A stretch of 33,659 nucleotides of DNA from a virus. Below are positions 4,977 to 22,256 of the stretch, piece by piece (the first letter of the stretch is position 1; every line of letters starts with the position of its first letter). Under the pieces are notes generated by a model. The model had not been told where the DNA came from and did no database searches. It was given only the letters and a program-made list of their open reading frames with translations. Location: the IMG/VR virus record IMGVR_UViG_3300023116_000168, positions 1 to 33,659 of that record; one strand, 5' to 3'. The position numbers and the translations under genes were made by a program.

Positions 4977-4985
4977 ATTATTTAG
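4977..4985 (-). promoter_or_regulatory. Putative late promoter abutting a tRNA 3' end
   Basis: The minus strand reads CTAAATAAT, close to the TATAAATA late element. It begins immediately after the discriminator base of tRNA-Leu and lies 20 bp upstream of the ATG at 4957. The match is partial. Confidence 0.45.
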
Positions 4986-5070
4986 TAGGAGTGGCGAGAC
5001 TTGAACTCGCACGACCGTAATGGTCAACAGATTTTAAGTCTGGTGTGTCTACCGATTCCACCACACTCCC
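4986..5070 (-). tRNA. tRNA-Leu (anticodon UAA)
   Basis: An 85-nt class II tRNA starting GGGAGTG on the minus strand. The acceptor stem pairs GGGAGTG with CACTCCT. The anticodon loop CTTAAAA gives UAA, a long variable arm follows, and the T-loop is GTTCAAGTC. CCA is not encoded. It would read UUA and UUG, with UUA frequent in this AT-rich genome. Confidence 0.9.
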
Positions 5071-5124
5071 AAAAAAGAAGTCTCGCTACTGACTTCAGAT
5101 GTTACTTCTAGATTATGCATACCT

Positions 5125-5146
5125 CCTCAACTTAGCGTTGTTGAGG
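5125..5146 (-). other. Hairpin between tRNA-Leu and the tRNA-like element
   Basis: CCTCAAC and GTTGAGG form a 7-bp perfect inverted repeat with an 8-nt loop just beyond the 3' end of the tRNA-like element. No T-tract follows, so it is more likely a processing or stabilising structure of the tRNA precursor than a terminator. Confidence 0.5.
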
Positions 5147-5148
5147 AA

Positions 5149-5255
5149 TGGGACTGACGGGATTCGAACTCCGCATCTACCTTGGTTCACAAAGTAATTT
5201 TATCACGTAGGTAGGGTTGCCGACGCCAGATCTCTACCAATTAAACTACAGTCCC
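5149..5255 (-). tRNA. Aberrant tRNA-like element, isotype unassigned (107 nt)
   Basis: The ends are those of a good tRNA: acceptor strands GGGACTG and CAGTCCC pair perfectly, a D-arm-like GTTTAATTGGTAGAG follows the 5' strand, and a canonical T-loop (GTTCGAATC) precedes the 3' strand. The middle does not fold normally. It is about 30 nt too long, the T-stem is only regular if one A is bulged, and no cloverleaf gives a clean anticodon. One arm, ACTTT-GTGAACC-AAGGT, could present GAA (Phe) but would leave about 35 nt unexplained before it; CTACCT and AGGTAG form a competing stem. It may be a decayed tRNA, one carrying an insertion, or a tRNA mimic. Confidence 0.4.
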
Positions 5256-5299
5256 GTCTGGTTGAGACAATCATACTACCGAAGTAGCAGATTGTCAAG

Positions 5300-5381
5300 T
5301 GGGCAGGGAGGGATTTGAACCCCCGTAGGCAGAGCCAAAAGTTTTACAGACTTCTTCCATTAACCACTCGGACACCTACCC
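5300..5381 (-). tRNA. tRNA-Tyr (anticodon GUA)
   Basis: An 82-nt class II tRNA starting GGGTAGG, paired with CCTGCCC at the 3' end. The anticodon loop CTGTAAA gives GUA, with U33 and A37 in place. The extended variable arm (GGCTCTGCC) is typical of bacterial tRNA-Tyr, and the T-loop is GTTCAAATC. CCA is not encoded. Its 5' end lies only 2 nt from the tRNA-Ile 3' end, so the two must be processed from one precursor. Confidence 0.9.
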
Positions 5382-5383
5382 GA

Positions 5384-5455
5384 TAGGAATGCCGAGAATT
5401 GAACTCGGTTCAGGCGCTTATAAGGCACCGGCATTAACCAATATGCGACACTCCC
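5384..5455 (-). tRNA. tRNA-Ile (anticodon UAU)
   Basis: A 72-nt tRNA starting GGGAGTG, paired with CATTCCT (two G-U pairs). The anticodon stem GGTGC/GCGCC carries the loop CTTATAA, giving UAU, which reads AUA. The T-loop is GTTCAATTC. CCA is not encoded. AUA is common in AT-rich phage genes and poorly served by typical hosts, a plausible reason to carry it. Confidence 0.9.
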
Positions 5456-5464
5456 AGAGGTAAA

Positions 5465-13018: not shown

Positions 13019-16000
13019 TTAAGACCTACTTGTTTGGTGTATTGGGTTCATACGACTACTCATACTATTTACCCCACCAAATTCAACAAATCCTCCCATT
13101 GAATTCTCAAGAACTGGACTCATTTGAGGTTTAGATACTGGAACTGGGACAGGAACCATTACCACCTTTGTGTTTGATTTTGGACTATTATAAGAAGCAA
13201 ATGAATTTGGAACACTCATTGAACCTTTAGGTCTAATTAATCCACCACCTTCATAAGCAACGTGAACATGATTGTGGTGATAATTTGGTTCATTTTTTCC
13301 ATGTAAAAGTTCTACAGGATTAACACCTTTCTTTCTATTGAACTCAGAAATTACATCTAAAATTGGTTGTTGTTCGTGAGTCCATGCTCCAATATCAATT
13401 GCTCTTGCACCTTGTGATTCATAATGTAAAGAATTCCTAGAGTGTCCACTTTCTCTTCCCCAAGGAGGATGTTCTGGATGTCTATGAACTTGACTAAAAT
13501 TCTCAGGAGATTTCAATTTCGTTTTAATAAATCTTCCTAACTCTCCAGCAAGTTTAGATCCTTCTCCTCTTTCATTAGAACTTGAATCTGATGTTGGTGA
13601 TGGTGTTTGTCCAGGAGGTTGTTGTTGAGGACCTGGTTTAGTTTGGGAAGATTTTTCTTCTTCCTTTCTTCTACCCAGAGCGTCATTATAAGCATTACGA
13701 ATAGATTCGGGTGTTTTTACTGGTTGACCATAATAACTTTGATTCCCTTTCGGAGAGTATGGAAAAGAAGCAAATTCGGGAGCAAGTTTATCAAGAACAT
13801 TTGTACTTAACCCTTCTGCTGCCAAAAGTTCTGGAGTAACTCCCCTATAATTAGCAAGTCTTCCAAGCATTAGTTGATCTTGAAGAGCAGGAGTAAACTT
13901 AGCATCCATAGGAACACCTTGTTTTTGAACTTCCTCTTTCAAAGTATAAGACATAAACTGATATCTACCAGTCGCATCAGAGTCATAGCTGTTTGGAGGA
14001 ATGTATTGTATTCCATTAAAAGTTCCAGTTTTTTGCATCTCTAGAACTTGAGCAACTGTCATCTCACCCCTTTCAAGTTCCGGTATTATCTTTCCACCGA
14101 AGACAGTTCCATAACTCCTTGATGTTCCCTCCGCAAAAGAAATTGCATCTAAGAGTGCTTTTTGTTCAGGTGTTCCTGGTCCACCAACAACACCCCCACC
14201 AGTTGCAGTAGATCCAGGTACTGATTCTCCAGTTGCAGAGTCTCTAGAAGCGCCAGCAGTTCCTGGTCCATAAGTAGATCCTTCACTAGAAGAAGTATTA
14301 TCAAATAATCCCAAAGGATCCCACCAAGAATTTTTAGATGCATCTTTTTTATCTTGTTCTGTTATTTTTTTCACTTTTTCATTGTTAATTTCCCTATCCA
14401 AGAAAAATGATAAAATCTGAGCAGAATTTTCAAAATCAGAGTCATTTGAAGATACTAATTTATTAACTTCACCACCTCCTTCCATAGCCACAATAGTATT
14501 CAATTTGCCCAAAGACCCAGAAATACTTTCAAAAGAATCTAGATTAGAAAATGACAGTAAATCATAAGCAATAGCCTTTGTAGTCCTTTGATCAGGTTTA
14601 TTGCCCAGAGCAATATTTAATATAGAAAACATAGAACTACCAATAATTGGCACATCCTTTATTGAATTTGCCAAATCAATAATTTTCTTTGCTCCCTCAG
14701 AAGTATAAACTTTGGATACATTTTTATTATCCTTAGCAACTTGAGAAATATCTGATAAGTGAATCTTTCTTTTTTTAATTTTACCTATGTTTTTATCATA
14801 TTCATAATCATTATCAACTTCACCACCTTCATCATATTTTAAAACCATTCCACCATTAGATTTTGCTTCAACTTTTGGTTTTTCTTGAGGATAACTTGAG
14901 GACCCAGATCCAGTAAGTTTATCATATATAAATCCACCAATCCAATCACCAAGCATACCACCAAGAACACCACCAATAGCAATACCTACAACACCTCCAA
15001 TAGCAGTTCCCAAAAATGGAACAACAGATCCCGCAGCACCTGCTAAAAATCCCCCAACCTTAGCACCAAGAGCAGTACCAATACCAGAACCAACCGCTCT
15101 TGATATTGCTCTTCCAACACTTTCACCTAGTGCAACATTTATAACAAAATCAATTAAGGCACCAAAAATTGGTATTCTTTTTGTCACTGGTCGAACAAAC
15201 TTTGCGAATACTAAAAGACCAGTTTTCTTGGTAATCTGCTCTGCTGCTTCTCCAGCGGCAGCTTTACCAAGACCAGTTGTTACTGTTGGTCTTGTTCTAA
15301 AAGGGTTTCTAATGTCTGGTCTTCCAGCAGTTCCACCACCACTACCAGTAACTCTAGGACGTTCTCTTATAGGGTTTCTAATGTCTGGTCTTCCAGCAGT
15401 TCCACCACCACTACCAGTAACTCTAGGACGTTCTCTAAAGGGGTTTCTAATGTCTGGTCTTCCAGCACCTTTACCACCAGTTGTCGTTACTTTAGGTCTC
15501 AATCCCTGTCCTGGTCTAGTTATTGGTTTCTGTCCACCACGACCACCACCTTTACATCCACCAAACCCACCACCAACAGCATTAGCCATTGAAATAATGA
15601 ATAAAATGTTCAATAATGTTTCAACTGCACTAGTAAATCCATCAAGGACTTTTACTAATCCTTCTCCACCAATAGCACCAGCAAATCCCCTAATCTTATC
15701 ATAAACTTTAAACCCAAAATCAACAAATGTTATGAACCCATCTAATATAAATCCTACTACATTAATAATGACATCCATTATTTTGCCAATAACCTTTACA
15801 AATCCAATGATTTGAGGAAGGAACTTCAAAATTGTGGGAAGTATTTTTCCTATGGTAATCCAAAATAAGAAATTAAATATTCTAGATAAAAGATTATCAA
15901 ATAATCCTTTTCCAGGTATAGGTATATTAAATTTACCTTTATTTTTCTTTTCTTCGTTTGTTTTTTCTAAAATTTCCTCTTTTTCTTTCCTTTTTGCTCT

Positions 16001-16366
16001 CTCAGAAAGTTTCCTTTGCTTCTCTGCTTGCTTCTTTCTATTCTTATACTGCTCCCCTAAAAGGTTCTCAATCTTTATAACTTTTTCTTTAATACTCAAT
16101 AAACTACCATCATCACCTTTAGTGGAAGATGATACTTCTGGTGAAGATGGAGGAGCACCAAAGTTTATTCTGTTTATTTTTGGAACTAATGCAGAAGATT
16201 TTTTATACCCTACACTATTTCCTTCTTGCTGTTTTACAATAGCATTACTATTTTTTTCCTGCTTTCTACCACTAAGCATTTTCTTAGCAGTTCCTTTCGC
16301 TGCACCCTTAGCGCCTTGAACTGCTAGTTGTCTTCCTAACCCCGAAAGTAATGCTGGTAATGCCAT
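13019..16366 (-). CDS. Tail protein with GH104-like muramidase and M15-like peptidase domains (1115 aa)
   Basis: Residues 95-150 are a charged coiled coil and 150-270 hold several hydrophobic segments. Residues 301-369 carry three 23-residue repeats (AGRPDIRNPFRERPRVTGSG), and 420-485 is glycine-zipper-like. Residues 732-900 resemble the lambda R / GH104 lytic transglycosylase: LLDAISFAEGT with candidate catalytic Glu746, ATGRYQF, FTPALQDQL and a C-terminal ASFPY...YYG. Residues 930-1040 resemble M15 D,D-peptidases: S979xH981, G986, D991 and H1033/H1035 (NSLHYESQGARAIDIG, HHNHVHVAY). The protein probably rides in the tail and opens peptidoglycan on infection. Its stop is 2 bp before the gp27-like gene. 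The family calls are from motifs only. Confidence 0.7.
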   Translation of the reverse strand: MALPALLSGLGRQLAVQGAKGAAKGTAKKMLSGRKQEKNSNAIVKQQEGNSVGYKKSSALVPKINRINFGAPPSSPEVSSSTKGDDGSLLSIKEKVIKIENLLGEQYKNRKKQAEKQRKLSERAKRKEKEEILEKTNEEKKNKGKFNIPIPGKGLFDNLLSRIFNFLFWITIGKILPTILKFLPQIIGFVKVIGKIMDVIINVVGFILDGFITFVDFGFKVYDKIRGFAGAIGGEGLVKVLDGFTSAVETLLNILFIISMANAVGGGFGGCKGGGRGGQKPITRPGQGLRPKVTTTGGKGAGRPDIRNPFRERPRVTGSGGGTAGRPDIRNPIRERPRVTGSGGGTAGRPDIRNPFRTRPTVTTGLGKAAAGEAAEQITKKTGLLVFAKFVRPVTKRIPIFGALIDFVINVALGESVGRAISRAVGSGIGTALGAKVGGFLAGAAGSVVPFLGTAIGGVVGIAIGGVLGGMLGDWIGGFIYDKLTGSGSSSYPQEKPKVEAKSNGGMVLKYDEGGEVDNDYEYDKNIGKIKKRKIHLSDISQVAKDNKNVSKVYTSEGAKKIIDLANSIKDVPIIGSSMFSILNIALGNKPDQRTTKAIAYDLLSFSNLDSFESISGSLGKLNTIVAMEGGGEVNKLVSSNDSDFENSAQILSFFLDREINNEKVKKITEQDKKDASKNSWWDPLGLFDNTSSSEGSTYGPGTAGASRDSATGESVPGSTATGGGVVGGPGTPEQKALLDAISFAEGTSRSYGTVFGGKIIPELERGEMTVAQVLEMQKTGTFNGIQYIPPNSYDSDATGRYQFMSYTLKEEVQKQGVPMDAKFTPALQDQLMLGRLANYRGVTPELLAAEGLSTNVLDKLAPEFASFPYSPKGNQSYYGQPVKTPESIRNAYNDALGRRKEEEKSSQTKPGPQQQPPGQTPSPTSDSSSNERGEGSKLAGELGRFIKTKLKSPENFSQVHRHPEHPPWGRESGHSRNSLHYESQGARAIDIGAWTHEQQPILDVISEFNRKKGVNPVELLHGKNEPNYHHNHVHVAYEGGGLIRPKGSMSVPNSFASYNSPKSNTKVVMVPVPVPVSKPQMSPVLENSMGGFVEFGGVNSMSSRMNPIHQTSRS
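15260..15466 (-). repeat. Three in-frame 69-bp tandem repeats
   Basis: Three copies of a 69-bp unit encode AGRPDIRNP(F/I)RERPRVTGSG plus GGT at residues 301-369 of the dual-hydrolase protein. Copies one and two are nearly identical at DNA level and the third has diverged, which suggests recent expansion. Confidence 0.8.
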
Positions 16367-16371
16367 CTATC

Positions 16372-19300
16372 TTATGTGAATGCAGAAATACCTATCGTAT
16401 CCATAAAGCGTTGTCTTTCAGACAATCCTGCCGAAGAAATCGGAGAGAAAAATTCATCTTGTGTTCCATTGGGACTATTTAATGCACCAGATGATCCTCC
16501 CATTCCACCTAAACCAGATAATGGAAGAGTTTCTATGTCAATTTCACCAGAACCTTGTACACTATAAGGAGTAATTCCTTCGGAGATGTCCTTATTTCTA
16601 AGGCCCATTTTTGCTGGAGTAGAATTGGAATCCAAATCAGCAACCATTCTATCAAGTTTACCAGGTCCTCCCATCTTCATTACCTTATCTACAGGCAAAA
16701 CATATTCTCCAGGTTGAACATCAATCCTTTGCCTATCAGTTCCTCCACCAGGAATATCCATTCCCGTGTTTTCTTTTATAAATCCTCCACCTTCCATACC
16801 AAACCAACCACGAGGATCCATTGCCCATCTTTTTGGTTTTGATGGTGTTGTTGTCTGAGATGGTTTTGATGGTGTTGTTGTCTGAGATGGTTTTGATGAT
16901 GGAGAAAATGAAAATCTTTGTTTGGTTTTTTCTACTTCTGCTGCTGCAGCAACTTGCGGATCTTTCAGTGCTTCAGCATAATTAGCATAAGTCTTACCAG
17001 TCGTACTCGAATAGTAAAGACCAGCAGAATTATTATTCATCAATTTTGCCATAGACATTCTCTGAGACTGCTGTGCCTTTTCTTTCGCGGCAGAAGAAAC
17101 ACTAATTGGCATTTTTTGCTGTGCTTGTCCAGAACCACTCCCAGAAGGATCTCCTCCTGGACCATAAAATGGTTTTGGCATTACTTTTACAGGATCAAAT
17201 CCAAGAACATCTTTATCAAAAATAATTTCATGTGTCGTAGATCCCCTACCACCATGCATTTTTTGACTAATGTCTAATAATGCTTCAAATGGTTTATAAA
17301 TTGCCGTTCTCAAATCTCCCATTTGTCCACTTTCACCACCAGAAATCATAAGAGATTTCTGAATTTCTTCTTCAGATGCTCCTTCAGAAGACATTCTATT
17401 TGCAACTAATCTATTAAATTCATCAACGTCTTTACTATTATCAATACCTAAAAATTTCTTAGATTTTGCCCAAGCCTGTGCCATAGATTCATCTGCAGGT
17501 CTATTTGTATCATACGCTTGAGACATTCCAATAATTCTGCCTTGTGCATCCCTCAAAAATTCAGAATCTGCAACTCTACCCATAGTATATTTCCCAGCAA
17601 TACCTCCAGCATTTTCAGCATAATCTTCATACTCAATAAAATCTCTACCCTTTTCAGTCGCAGTTTTTTGAGCATCAAGCATTGCTCTTTGCATGTTTTT
17701 AGAGATACTTCTATCTGTTCTTTTAATACCCAAGAAACCAGATAAAATTGCAGGTAAAGCTTCTGCACCAGCATCAGCAAATCCCTGAACTAATGGGATG
17801 TTTTCTTCTATTTTTGAAGGAATTTTAGAAATACCTCCAATAAAGTTATTCCCATAATCAATTGTTGGTTGGACTACTTTAGGAACTTGTTGAGCAACTC
17901 TACTTCCATAATCAGTTGGTTGGACTACTTTAGGAACTTGTTGAGCAACTCTACTTCCATAATCAATTGTTGGTTGGACTACTTTAGGAACTTGTTGAGC
18001 AACTCTACTTCCATAATCAATTGTTGGTTGGACTACTTTAGGAACTTGTTGAGCAACTCTACTTCCATAATCAAATACACTCTGTGCCTCTCTATATCCA
18101 ATATCTCCTACTTTCAAAGCACGAGCAAGAGTAGGATTTGCTTTTGCCCATTCAATAAGATTACTATCTAAACCTGATGCAATATCTTCCGGTTTTGATG
18201 GTTTTCTAGGTTTTTGAATTCTAGATTCTTCAGGACCTTCACCAACACGACCACCATTAGAAAAAGCAGGAAGAATTAATCCTCCACCAGATGCTGCTTG
18301 CACTTTAGCAGTCTTAGGTTTATTTGCATTAGAACCACCATGCTGCTTATTTAATCCAAGAAAATAATCAGCACCAAGAGCATTTACTGTTTCTTTATTA
18401 ATAACAACTTCACCAGGTCTTGCAGCAATTAATTGGGTATCTACTCCAGCACCTTTAATGTCTTGACCACTTTCAGTGGTAATTTTTCCACCACGCTTAT
18501 ATGACTTTACTTCATCATCTTCTTCATCATTAACCAAACCAGGAATTACTTTTGGACCCCATGCACCAAAAGTAAACAATCCAGCTGCTGCAAGTGCTGT
18601 TGCCGAAATCGGATTTCTCATTCCAAACCTAAGTAAGGATGGAATAGCAACTTTTAATAACTTAGCAACTCCCTTACCAATTACAAAAACTGCCTTAGTA
18701 ATTAATCTACCAAGAGGATTTAAAAATACGAGACCAGCAAGTATTGTAGGCCAAAATGTCTTAAGTAACCGACCTATTGTTTTTATTTTACTTTCATTTT
18801 TGGGGTCAGTAAACCATTTAAGAAACTTTTGAAAAACTTTTCCTAAAAAGATAACTGTAAAAAATCTAATAATTTTTCCAAAAAAATCTTGTAGTGGAGA
18901 AAAGATCTTACCAGCAACTTTTGCTAATGATTTAATTCCTTTGGAGAAAGCACTCTCTCTTTTATTTTCTTTATCTTTTCTCTTCCCTCTCTCTTCAAGT
19001 TTTCTTTGCTTCTCTACTTGGTCTTTATCAAACTTCAGTTGCTTCGATAAAATACCAATAATTCTATCAAGTGATTTACTTATACTCTTTAGTATTTGAT
19101 TATCACTTTGCTTTCTTTCTTTTTTCTCTTCTTTTAAATCATCAACTCTCTGCGACTTCTCAGAAATCTCTTTTCCTTTAAGAAGAGCATAAGCAGGTTT
19201 TCTTGTCTGAGCAGTATCTTTCTTTGGTCCACCAACATTAAAATTGGTAAAACTATCCTTACTTATCTTTTTCTTTACCTTAAAAGTACCTTTTCCTTTA

Positions 19301-19719
19301 TTTCCTCTTGCCTTCTTCAGTTCTTCACGAAGAAGCATAGCATCTTCAGTAGAAGTTTCCTCAGTACCTCTACTAACTTCTATAAGTTTTTCTTTCAGTA
19401 AGTTTGCATAGTCATCATAATCCAAATCAAAGGTATACTCAAGTCCAAGTAACTCAAGTATTCTAGAATCTACATCTTCAGTTTTAGAATACGTTGTAAG
19501 TGCTCCTGGAGGTGATGTCTTTTTCTTTCTAGGTCTTCCTCTTTTTCTTTTTGGTTTAGTCGCAGTACTTTTCTTTCCCTTAATTTGATTTAAAAGATCA
19601 TCAAGACCTTCTGGTATATTGTCTTCCTTATTATTCTTATTTCCAGTAAGTTCGTTCAGAAGGTCATCAAGACCTTCTGGTATATTGTCTTCATTATTTC
19701 GCTTCGACTTACCCGCCAT
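16372..19719 (-). CDS. Tape-measure-like tail protein (1115 aa)
   Basis: It lies immediately after the gp26 / gp51-like pair, the place of the tape measure gene in lambda-type gene order. Residues 10-22 and 32-44 repeat EDNIPEGLDDLLN. Residues 57-67 are basic with an AT-hook-like KRGRPRKKK. Residues 185-255 are a coiled coil and 270-385 hold membrane-like segments (FFGKIIRFFTVIFLGKVF, TILAGLVFL). Two blocks, GVDTQLIAARPGEVVINKET (about 425-444) and TDRQRIDVQPGEYVLPVDKV near the C-terminus, match the PGEyVi motif common in tape measure proteins. Residues 550-623 are tandem repeats. It shares a coiled-coil plus hydrophobic block with the next protein. A structural length-determining role is inferred; T4 uses gp29. 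Confidence 0.6.
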   Translation of the reverse strand: MAGKSKRNNEDNIPEGLDDLLNELTGNKNNKEDNIPEGLDDLLNQIKGKKSTATKPKRKRGRPRKKKTSPPGALTTYSKTEDVDSRILELLGLEYTFDLDYDDYANLLKEKLIEVSRGTEETSTEDAMLLREELKKARGNKGKGTFKVKKKISKDSFTNFNVGGPKKDTAQTRKPAYALLKGKEISEKSQRVDDLKEEKKERKQSDNQILKSISKSLDRIIGILSKQLKFDKDQVEKQRKLEERGKRKDKENKRESAFSKGIKSLAKVAGKIFSPLQDFFGKIIRFFTVIFLGKVFQKFLKWFTDPKNESKIKTIGRLLKTFWPTILAGLVFLNPLGRLITKAVFVIGKGVAKLLKVAIPSLLRFGMRNPISATALAAAGLFTFGAWGPKVIPGLVNDEEDDEVKSYKRGGKITTESGQDIKGAGVDTQLIAARPGEVVINKETVNALGADYFLGLNKQHGGSNANKPKTAKVQAASGGGLILPAFSNGGRVGEGPEESRIQKPRKPSKPEDIASGLDSNLIEWAKANPTLARALKVGDIGYREAQSVFDYGSRVAQQVPKVVQPTIDYGSRVAQQVPKVVQPTIDYGSRVAQQVPKVVQPTDYGSRVAQQVPKVVQPTIDYGNNFIGGISKIPSKIEENIPLVQGFADAGAEALPAILSGFLGIKRTDRSISKNMQRAMLDAQKTATEKGRDFIEYEDYAENAGGIAGKYTMGRVADSEFLRDAQGRIIGMSQAYDTNRPADESMAQAWAKSKKFLGIDNSKDVDEFNRLVANRMSSEGASEEEIQKSLMISGGESGQMGDLRTAIYKPFEALLDISQKMHGGRGSTTHEIIFDKDVLGFDPVKVMPKPFYGPGGDPSGSGSGQAQQKMPISVSSAAKEKAQQSQRMSMAKLMNNNSAGLYYSSTTGKTYANYAEALKDPQVAAAAEVEKTKQRFSFSPSSKPSQTTTPSKPSQTTTPSKPKRWAMDPRGWFGMEGGGFIKENTGMDIPGGGTDRQRIDVQPGEYVLPVDKVMKMGGPGKLDRMVADLDSNSTPAKMGLRNKDISEGITPYSVQGSGEIDIETLPLSGLGGMGGSSGALNSPNGTQDEFFSPISSAGLSERQRFMDTIGISAFT
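17850..18070 (-). repeat. Four 54-bp tandem repeats in the tape-measure-like gene
   Basis: The unit encodes DYGSRVAQQVPKVVQPTI (18 residues). Three copies are complete and one lacks the final Ile through an in-frame 3-bp deletion; a partial fifth copy (DYG) follows. The copies are almost identical at DNA level, indicating recent duplication. Confidence 0.9.
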
Positions 19720-19906
19720 TTGCTCTTCTTTGGTTTTCTTGAAGTTTCATTCTCTCTTCTTCTTCCTCTAAGTGATTCTTAAGAAGAATAACATAAATGT
19801 CTCGCTCCCACGGCATCATATTTTCAATTTCTGTTAATGAGTATTTATGATACTGCATCAAAGAAAAATTGAGTCTCAAGTAATTCTCAAGACTCATATG
19901 AGACAT
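19709..19906 (-). CDS. Small baseplate/tail assembly protein, gp51-like (65 aa)
   Basis: The product starts MSHMSLENYLRLNFSLMQYH and contains EIENMMPWERDIYVILLKNH followed by an acidic-basic helix. The 'mPWErdIY' pattern is typical of the downstream part of tail assembly chaperone pairs and of T4 gp51, the catalyst of hub assembly. Its ATG lies 2 bp after the gp26 stop, with AGGA of the intervening sequence giving poor spacing. The frame is open upstream through a T TTT TTC slippery site in gp26, so it may also be made as a C-terminal extension of gp26. It overlaps the tape-measure-like gene by 11 bp. The gp51 label is inference. Confidence 0.65.
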   Translation of the reverse strand: MSHMSLENYLRLNFSLMQYHKYSLTEIENMMPWERDIYVILLKNHLEEEEERMKLQENQRRANGG

Positions 19907-19908
19907 TC

Positions 19909-20628
19909 CTAGCCGAAAAAACTTGCTAATCCCTCCAGTACAACATCAGACTCTACACCAGTCTTTGGATTAGTAACTTTAAACTTATGAGACAACTTAG
20001 GCATCGTGTTAAAGAATTCTTCAATGTCCTTAAACTGATTCGTATTCATCTGGTCAAGGAATTCAACAAGTTCTTTTTTAGACACATCAGATGATGTCCA
20101 AACTTCTTCTTCCGTAAAAATCTTATCAATACAAGAAGCAATCAAATCAAAAGATTGGTCAATGTTGGCATTGCTAGAAATATCAAAATTATTTTTAATA
20201 AATTGATCGAGAGATGGATATTTCATTTCCATCATTACACTATCATCAAGTTTAATTCTATTAGTGTGCTTATCATCCTTAATTACTTCAATGTCATCAA
20301 CATTAATAGTAACAGGAACTTCAGTTTCCCCATCATCAGGGCAGATAATGTTGACATCAATTTCTTCTCCAACAGATTTAGATCTGATGTTTAAGAAAAG
20401 ATACTCAATGTCAAAAGTAGGCAGTGTTTCTACTTTAATACCTCTAGTTTCAATACAGTTTTTAATAACTGTTTTTACTGCGTTTGTAATTTCTTTTGTG
20501 TTCTCAGTTTCCATAGCCATCACAAGAACTTTTTCTTCTTTGACTAGGAAAGGTCTATACTTAATTGTCTGACCAGTAGAAGGCAATTCCAACTCATAAG
20601 TTGGTGTAACAATCTTAGGTAATGGCAT
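19909..20628 (-). CDS. gp26: Baseplate hub protein gp26 (239 aa)
   Basis: The opening LPKIVTPTYELELPSTGQTI followed by KYRPFLVKEEKVLVMAME is the signature of the T4 gp26 baseplate family, and the length is close to the T4 protein (about 208 residues). The middle (DIEYLFLNIRSKSVGEEIDV, VTINVDDIEVI) and the C-terminal helical part complete a full-length protein. In T4 gp26 belongs to the central hub. Here it precedes the small gp51-like protein and the tape-measure-like gene, the order of lambda G-T-H. The C-terminus SFFG is encoded by a slippery T-run. A late-type promoter lies 30 bp upstream. Confidence 0.85.
   Translation of the reverse strand: MPLPKIVTPTYELELPSTGQTIKYRPFLVKEEKVLVMAMETENTKEITNAVKTVIKNCIETRGIKVETLPTFDIEYLFLNIRSKSVGEEIDVNIICPDDGETEVPVTINVDDIEVIKDDKHTNRIKLDDSVMMEMKYPSLDQFIKNNFDISSNANIDQSFDLIASCIDKIFTEEEVWTSSDVSKKELVEFLDQMNTNQFKDIEEFFNTMPKLSHKFKVTNPKTGVESDVVLEGLASFFG
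19915..19921 (-). promoter_or_regulatory. Putative -1 ribosomal frameshift site
   Basis: The gp26 frame reads AGT TTT TTC GGC TAG. The heptamer T TTT TTC fits the X XXY YYZ rule for -1 slippage. After slipping, ribosomes read CGG CTA GGA ATG and continue in the frame of the 65-residue gene, giving a product of about 306 residues. Confidence 0.6.
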
Positions 20629-21806: not shown

Positions 21807-22256
21807 ATGCGAGAAGGAAAATATCATCAAGGAAGATTTCATCCAAGATTTCCTAACAAATACAAAGGTGACTCAAGAAACATCGTTTATAGGTCTTCTT
21901 GGGAACTTAAGTTTATGAGATACTGTGACCGTAACGATAAAATCTTAGAGTGGGGTTCGGAAGAGTTTTTTATTCCCTACTTCGACCCAACAACAAATAA
22001 GGTTCGTAGATACTTTCCCGACTTTATTGTAAAGATAAAAGAAAGTAGTGGAGCAATTAAAAAGTATTTGGTAGAAGTGAAGCCAAAAAGACAGACACTT
22101 GTACCAAAACAATCAAAAGGTAAGCAAAAGAAAACTTACATTAACGAAGTTCTTACTTATAACAAAAATCTTGCGAAGTGGAAAGCAGCACAAGAATGGT
22201 GCGAAGATAGATTGATAGAATTTAAGATAATCACAGAAGATGAATTAGGCCTATAA
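21807..22256 (+). CDS. gp4: Head completion protein gp4
   Basis: The 149-residue product is a clear member of the T4 gp4 head-completion family: GRFHPRFPNKYKGDSRNIVY, RSSWELKFMRYCD, ILEWGSEEFFIPY, RYFPDFIVK, KYLVEVKPKRQT and CEDRLIEFKI. The E-x-W-E...PDF...EVKP arrangement resembles a TnsA/PD-(D/E)XK-type nuclease fold. In T4 the protein acts on filled heads before tail joining. The first ATG at 21803 is in another frame; the one at 21807 opens the conserved N-terminus. The TAA stop is part of the next late promoter. Confidence 0.9.
   Translation: MREGKYHQGRFHPRFPNKYKGDSRNIVYRSSWELKFMRYCDRNDKILEWGSEEFFIPYFDPTTNKVRRYFPDFIVKIKESSGAIKKYLVEVKPKRQTLVPKQSKGKQKKTYINEVLTYNKNLAKWKAAQEWCEDRLIEFKIITEDELGL

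Follow-up and report, generated by a model that had tools for sequence, protein, structure and literature searches.

A 2016 review describes the G-T frameshift as general in long-tailed phages, with T4 as an exception (PMC5009743). T4 gp26 and gp51 have a role in assembly of the baseplate hub, and gp51 is needed for assembly and is not found in the particle (PMC3004832). According to papers that cite their work, Vladimirov, Gautam and Davidson (2022) identified the tail assembly chaperone (TAC) genes of T4-like phages, which have a short and a long form (PMC10885494, PMC12846349). One of these papers also credits them with polyT-containing -1 slippery sequences in the TAC-N genes of T4-like phages (PMC12846349). 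Going by these citing papers, the frameshift that we describe below is not new in kind, since polyT slip sites have already been credited in such genes.

We analyzed a 33,659-base IMG/VR virus fragment (IMGVR_UViG_3300023116_000168) from a marine T4-like cyanophage. The whole of this fragment is called the window here. The gene region of interest contains the following features:

20628..19909 (-): gp26 gene, zero-frame short product of 239 aa, matching PF12322 and phrog_150
19921..19915 (-): slippery heptamer T TTT TTC, phased X XXY YYZ relative to gp26
19909..19911 (-): gp26 stop codon TAG, 3 nt (GGC) past the heptamer
19709..19918 (-): -1 frame extension (gp51-like C-terminal domain), predicted to be slip-joined to gp26 in a fusion totalling 306 aa
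19709..19906 (-): the small domain as an ATG-started ORF of 65 aa, matching phrog_634 (E=1.3e-27)
16372..19719 (-): next gene, 1115 aa, large and with hydrophobic segments, a candidate tape measure

The gp26 product matched PF12322 (T4_baseplate) with 262.8 bits, against a curated cut-off of 24.5 (E=3.2e-78), and phrog_150 with E=1.1e-83. By these profile matches, gp26 belongs to the T4 gp26/gp51 N-domain family associated with baseplate hub assembly. Direct reading of its 3' end gives GCA AGT TTT TTC GGC TAG. Both codons of the heptamer are read by tRNA-Phe, so re-pairing after a -1 slip would be complete, and the A-site codon TTC begins six bases 5' of the TAG. The -1 frame opens just 37 nt upstream of the TAG, which makes its overlap with gp26 short, and T TTT TTC is the sole canonical heptamer within that overlap. 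Slippage at this site would give the peptide F-F-R-L-G-M-S-H-M... and the junction ...LEGLASFF/RLGMSHMSLENYLRLNF... The initial annotation had proposed that gp26 ends in a valid -1 heptamer followed by GGC TAG, that translation could continue from it into the next ORF without meeting a stop, and that a fusion of about 306 residues would result. The sequence bears this out: the heptamer is where it was placed, the -1 frame stays open to a stop at 19709, and the predicted fusion is exactly 306 aa long. Three tRNA genes lie at 4985-5456 (-), for Leu(taa), Tyr(gta) and Ile(tat); a gene for tRNA-Phe, the reader of the slip site, is absent.

We conclude that this locus very probably uses a programmed -1 ribosomal frameshift to make gp26 as a short product and gp26-51 as a long one, a putative tail assembly chaperone pair of the G/GT type. 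In the model suggested by the sequence, most ribosomes would stop at the TAG at 19909 and release the 239-aa gp26. A minority would pause at T TTT TTC, aided by a downstream RNA hairpin, and slip one base back on the two Phe codons, producing the gp26-51 fusion from the same start. Both slippage and the rate at which it would occur are predictions of this model. Homology to T4 gp26 and gp51, together with the analogy to lambda gpG and gpGT, suggests that both forms act as chaperones of tail or baseplate assembly; their target would presumably be the large tape-measure-like protein encoded next.

The initial annotation had suggested aligning the junction as a check on the conservation of the heptamer and frame, and we found that both are kept well beyond the cyanophages. 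Our set of 254 junctions was drawn from phage records and IMG/VR contigs, and 252 of them carry TTTTTTC exactly. The two deviants were Rhizobium phage P10VF, which has TTTTTTG, and Vibrio phage K476, which has no canonical site. The heptamer was found in 96/98 representatives at 90% gp26 identity (one TTTTTTG, one none) and in 20/22 at 70% gp26 identity. The heptamer, the frame, a downstream hairpin and the -1 peptide are kept from cyanophages to Pelagibacter, Methylophilales, Stenotrophomonas, Aeromonas, Pseudomonas and KVP40-like Vibrio phages. Pelagibacter phage HTVC008M and Methylophilales phage Melnitz-3, which we read separately, both have T TTT TTT. The locus thus has one of the features of a programmed -1 frameshift, a conserved X XXY YYZ heptamer, in phase with the zero frame, inside the ORF overlap.

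Several junctions differ in their local arrangement. In HTVC008M (locus L270) and Melnitz-3 (locus L271), at about 2190-2390, T TTT TTT stands directly 5' of a TAA, and the annotated small ORF begins approximately 50 nt past the gp26 stop, within the -1 domain. Vibrio phages K476 (L087, 4690-4910) and K413 (L268, 2130-2350) have the gp26/small-domain pair in the -1 frame and no canonical heptamer; the junctions read CTT TTT GCG TAATGATG in K476 and CTT TTC AAG TAATGG in K413. These two pairs may reflect stop-start reinitiation or an unusual slip.

Conservation of the heptamer might simply mean that the end of gp26 requires Phe-Phe, as T4 gp26 also retains a terminal EFF and has no frameshift there. 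The codons argue strongly against this. The terminal Phe-Phe of gp26 is written TTTTTTC in 96/96 cases, versus 2/96 for the other Phe-Phe pairs in gp26 of the same representatives, so an amino-acid constraint fails to explain the heptamer. In other ORFs of at least 200 aa the count was about 14/353, a figure obtained by subtraction. In those T4-like gp26 genes that retain the terminal Phe-Phe, its codons are TTC TTT; the slippery codons are absent, and the frame behind enters gene 25. We give a simple need for Phe-Phe almost no credence. Both chance and amino-acid constraint were rejected as the source of the heptamer on the basis of these codon counts.

We examined RNA structure downstream of the slip by folding the 51 nt that begin 3 nt past the heptamer and scoring them against synonymous -1 frame recodings drawn at random. 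The mean folding z was -2.77 across 95 representatives, with 69% under -2. Controls folded far less well: z lay between -0.19 and -0.53 at eight positions inside gp26 and was -0.16 at a position 60 nt downstream. The stems vary by lineage. S-PM2 has a stem of ~14 bp, P-SSM2 has AGTATGgCTCA/TGAGtCATACT, and the junction L142 has GCCCTC/GAGGGC five nt past the slip. We looked for one stem common to all clades and found none; RNAalifold gave a weak common stem or none in 2/4 clades. In the window's own clade, the stem GGTCC-ATAT-GGACC, located ten nt past the slip, covaries: 95.1% of cells are paired, 22 cells are double-changed, 0/500 shuffles scored as high, and none of the slid versions came close. 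The excess folding over controls and this covariation indicate that RNA structure follows the slip site, and a stimulatory effect is predicted from it.

Two hairpins can form in the window:

19891..19904 (-): short hairpin GTCTC-ATAT-GAGTC, 10 nt past the heptamer, the clade's covarying 5-bp stem with one mismatch in the window
19870..19896 (-): 11-bp hairpin UGAGUCUUGAG-AAUUA-CUUGAGACUCA, 18 nt past the heptamer, about -13.4 kcal/mol

These hairpins have bases in common and are thus mutually exclusive. The 11-bp hairpin is not kept among the closest relatives. The window fold alone gave z -1.79 against dinucleotide shuffles, and a search of Rfam returned no match. RNA polymerase might instead generate the second frame by slipping on the T6 run. 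The run of six T is present, but the codon-phased X XXY YYZ pattern, the final C and the downstream hairpin suit a ribosome better than a polymerase. Productive RNA polymerase slippage usually requires runs longer than T6, and we consider this route very improbable.

We considered whether the small protein could instead be a separate product, translated from the ATG at 19906 by termination-reinitiation (TAGGAATG) or through its own ribosome binding, with no fusion formed. The window ATG sits 2 nt past the gp26 stop codon, an ATG is found at this position in 67/97 representatives, and the S-PM2 and P-SSM2 annotations call the small ORF a gene of its own. However, the ATG is absent in 30/97 representatives. 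The first ten codons of the -1 frame contain no ATG in 19/97 and no start codon at all (ATG, GTG or TTG) in 12/97, and Aeh1, in which the small ORF is unannotated, has no in-frame ATG nearby. The peptide FR[IL][AS][LM] directly after the slip is conserved, as are the -1 residues between the slip and any ATG, and a separate product would leave both the invariant TTTTTTC and the hairpins unexplained. We therefore regard separate translation without fusion as improbable. The strength of the Shine-Dalgarno site at the small ORF's ATG is uninformative, because few genes here have strong sites.

Both routes might also operate together, with frameshifting yielding gp26-51 and reinitiation yielding a free small gp51 in ATG-bearing lineages. 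Retention of the ATG in about two thirds of representatives would fit this, but ATG and CTG/CTC/TTG alike suit the M/L residue conserved in the -1 peptide, so the ATG may be just the codon for that residue. We consider such a combination possible but unlikely. The frameshift as the main route to the small domain accounts better for these sequences: because the ATG is unconserved, the small gp51-like protein named in the initial annotation is probably made for the most part as a frameshift domain and less as a product with its own start. In Aeh1 (L086, 4708-4884), T TTT TTC is followed by an unannotated gp51-like domain in the -1 frame. Sullivan et al. 2010 (PMC3037559) listed no gp51 for Aeh1 and a short gp51 for cyanophages and a vibriophage. 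The frameshift reading explains both the short cyanophage gp51 and the reported absence in Aeh1.

We compared the two parts of the predicted fusion with T4 gp26 and gp51, which are separate, divergently transcribed genes. T4 gp51 matched PF12322 over residues 1-201 (E=3.9e-52), and among PHROG profiles it matched phrog_150 over 3-248 and phrog_634 over 147-246. In hhalign comparisons, the gp26 family aligned to the first 200 residues of T4 gp51 (E=8e-12) and the -1 extension to its columns 199-251 (E=2.4e-8). The small domain is therefore homologous to the T4 gp51 C-terminus, as both its phrog_634 match and hhalign indicate. Since T4 gp51 carries the gp26 domain and the small domain in one frame, T4 hard-wires the product that the frameshift would give. 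A tree of gp26, T4 gp26 and T4 gp51 resolved three separate groups on long branches.

The gene that follows shares its first 11 nt with the end of the -1 extension. The next genes are large, contain hydrophobic segments and gave weak tape-measure matches; searches of them against the T4 gp29 family gave no match. We infer that the gene at 16372..19719 is a candidate tape measure. The ORFs at 13019-16366 and 16372-19719 (-) are consecutive and exactly 1115 aa each. Residues 204-319 of the second are related to residues 83-197 of the first, with 32% identity (E=6e-10). Given this shared stretch, the two proteins may be paralogues of ancient origin or may both be tape-measure-like. Both proteins contain in-frame repeats, at 17850-18180 (-) and 15300-15600 (-) (DYGSRVAQQVPKVVQPTI; GRPDIRNPFRERPRVTGSGGGTA). 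At 21807-22256 (+), a gene transcribed away from the tail genes encodes a gp4-like head closure protein that carries a TnsA-like endonuclease domain (PF08722).

We also compared the gene products with known TACs. At the sequence level, the locus encodes a short and a long product from one start by frameshift, as TACs do. The predicted structure of the window gp26 had a mean pLDDT of 83.8. Among 50 listed Foldseek matches to this model, the chains of the HK97 TAC 2ob9 (gp13) had the top probability (0.47 and 0.44), with non-significant E values of 2.2 and 3.1. Foldseek gave no significant match for either the gp26 or the gp51 model, and the gp51 model showed no comparable match to 2ob9. A sequence search of solved structures returned no credible match. 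The -1 extension showed no significant sequence similarity to lambda T or to P2 E', and it matched no Pfam family. Extensions of the lambda T and P2 E' type share little sequence, and similarity is not a strict requirement. Homology to T4 gp26 and gp51, together with published work as described in the citing papers, lends support to the chaperone role that the initial annotation had assigned to the pair.

Outside the T4 branch, almost every sampled member of the T4 superfamily falls with the frameshifters. We tentatively suggest, at somewhat less than even confidence, that the frameshift is ancestral in the T4 superfamily, that the heptamer stayed fixed while the hairpin was rebuilt often by lineage, and that the T4 branch arrived at gp26 plus gp51 by duplication; the two exclusive hairpins of the window may tune the rate of slippage. 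T4 gp51 is a single-frame version of the same product, so the T4 exception is one of encoding and not of protein design. On the frameshift reading, several hundred marine phage genomes would have their annotation corrected. In the papers available to us, the text of Vladimirov et al. 2022 not among them, we found no account of lineage-specific hairpins or of the codon-level contrast between gp26 and T4 gp51.

The locus resembles lambda G/GT (PMC5009743) in its short protein, its predicted -1 slip near the 3' end and its predicted longer minor fusion; the gene next to it is a candidate tape measure, where lambda has a tape-measure gene. The slip sequences differ, being GGGAAAG in lambda and TTTTTTC in the window. 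The P2 E/E+E' pair (NC_001895) is similar in having a -1 slip, TTTTTTG, near the end of E, which is followed by the tape measure T, but P2 E is far shorter, at 91 aa. T4 gp26 corresponds to the short form and T4 gp51 to the long form, domain by domain; T4 uses two separate genes in place of the frameshift, and the slippery codons are absent from its gp26 end. The title of Vladimirov et al. 2022 stresses a mechanism other than frameshifting, and the window would represent the frameshift-using side of the same chaperone system.
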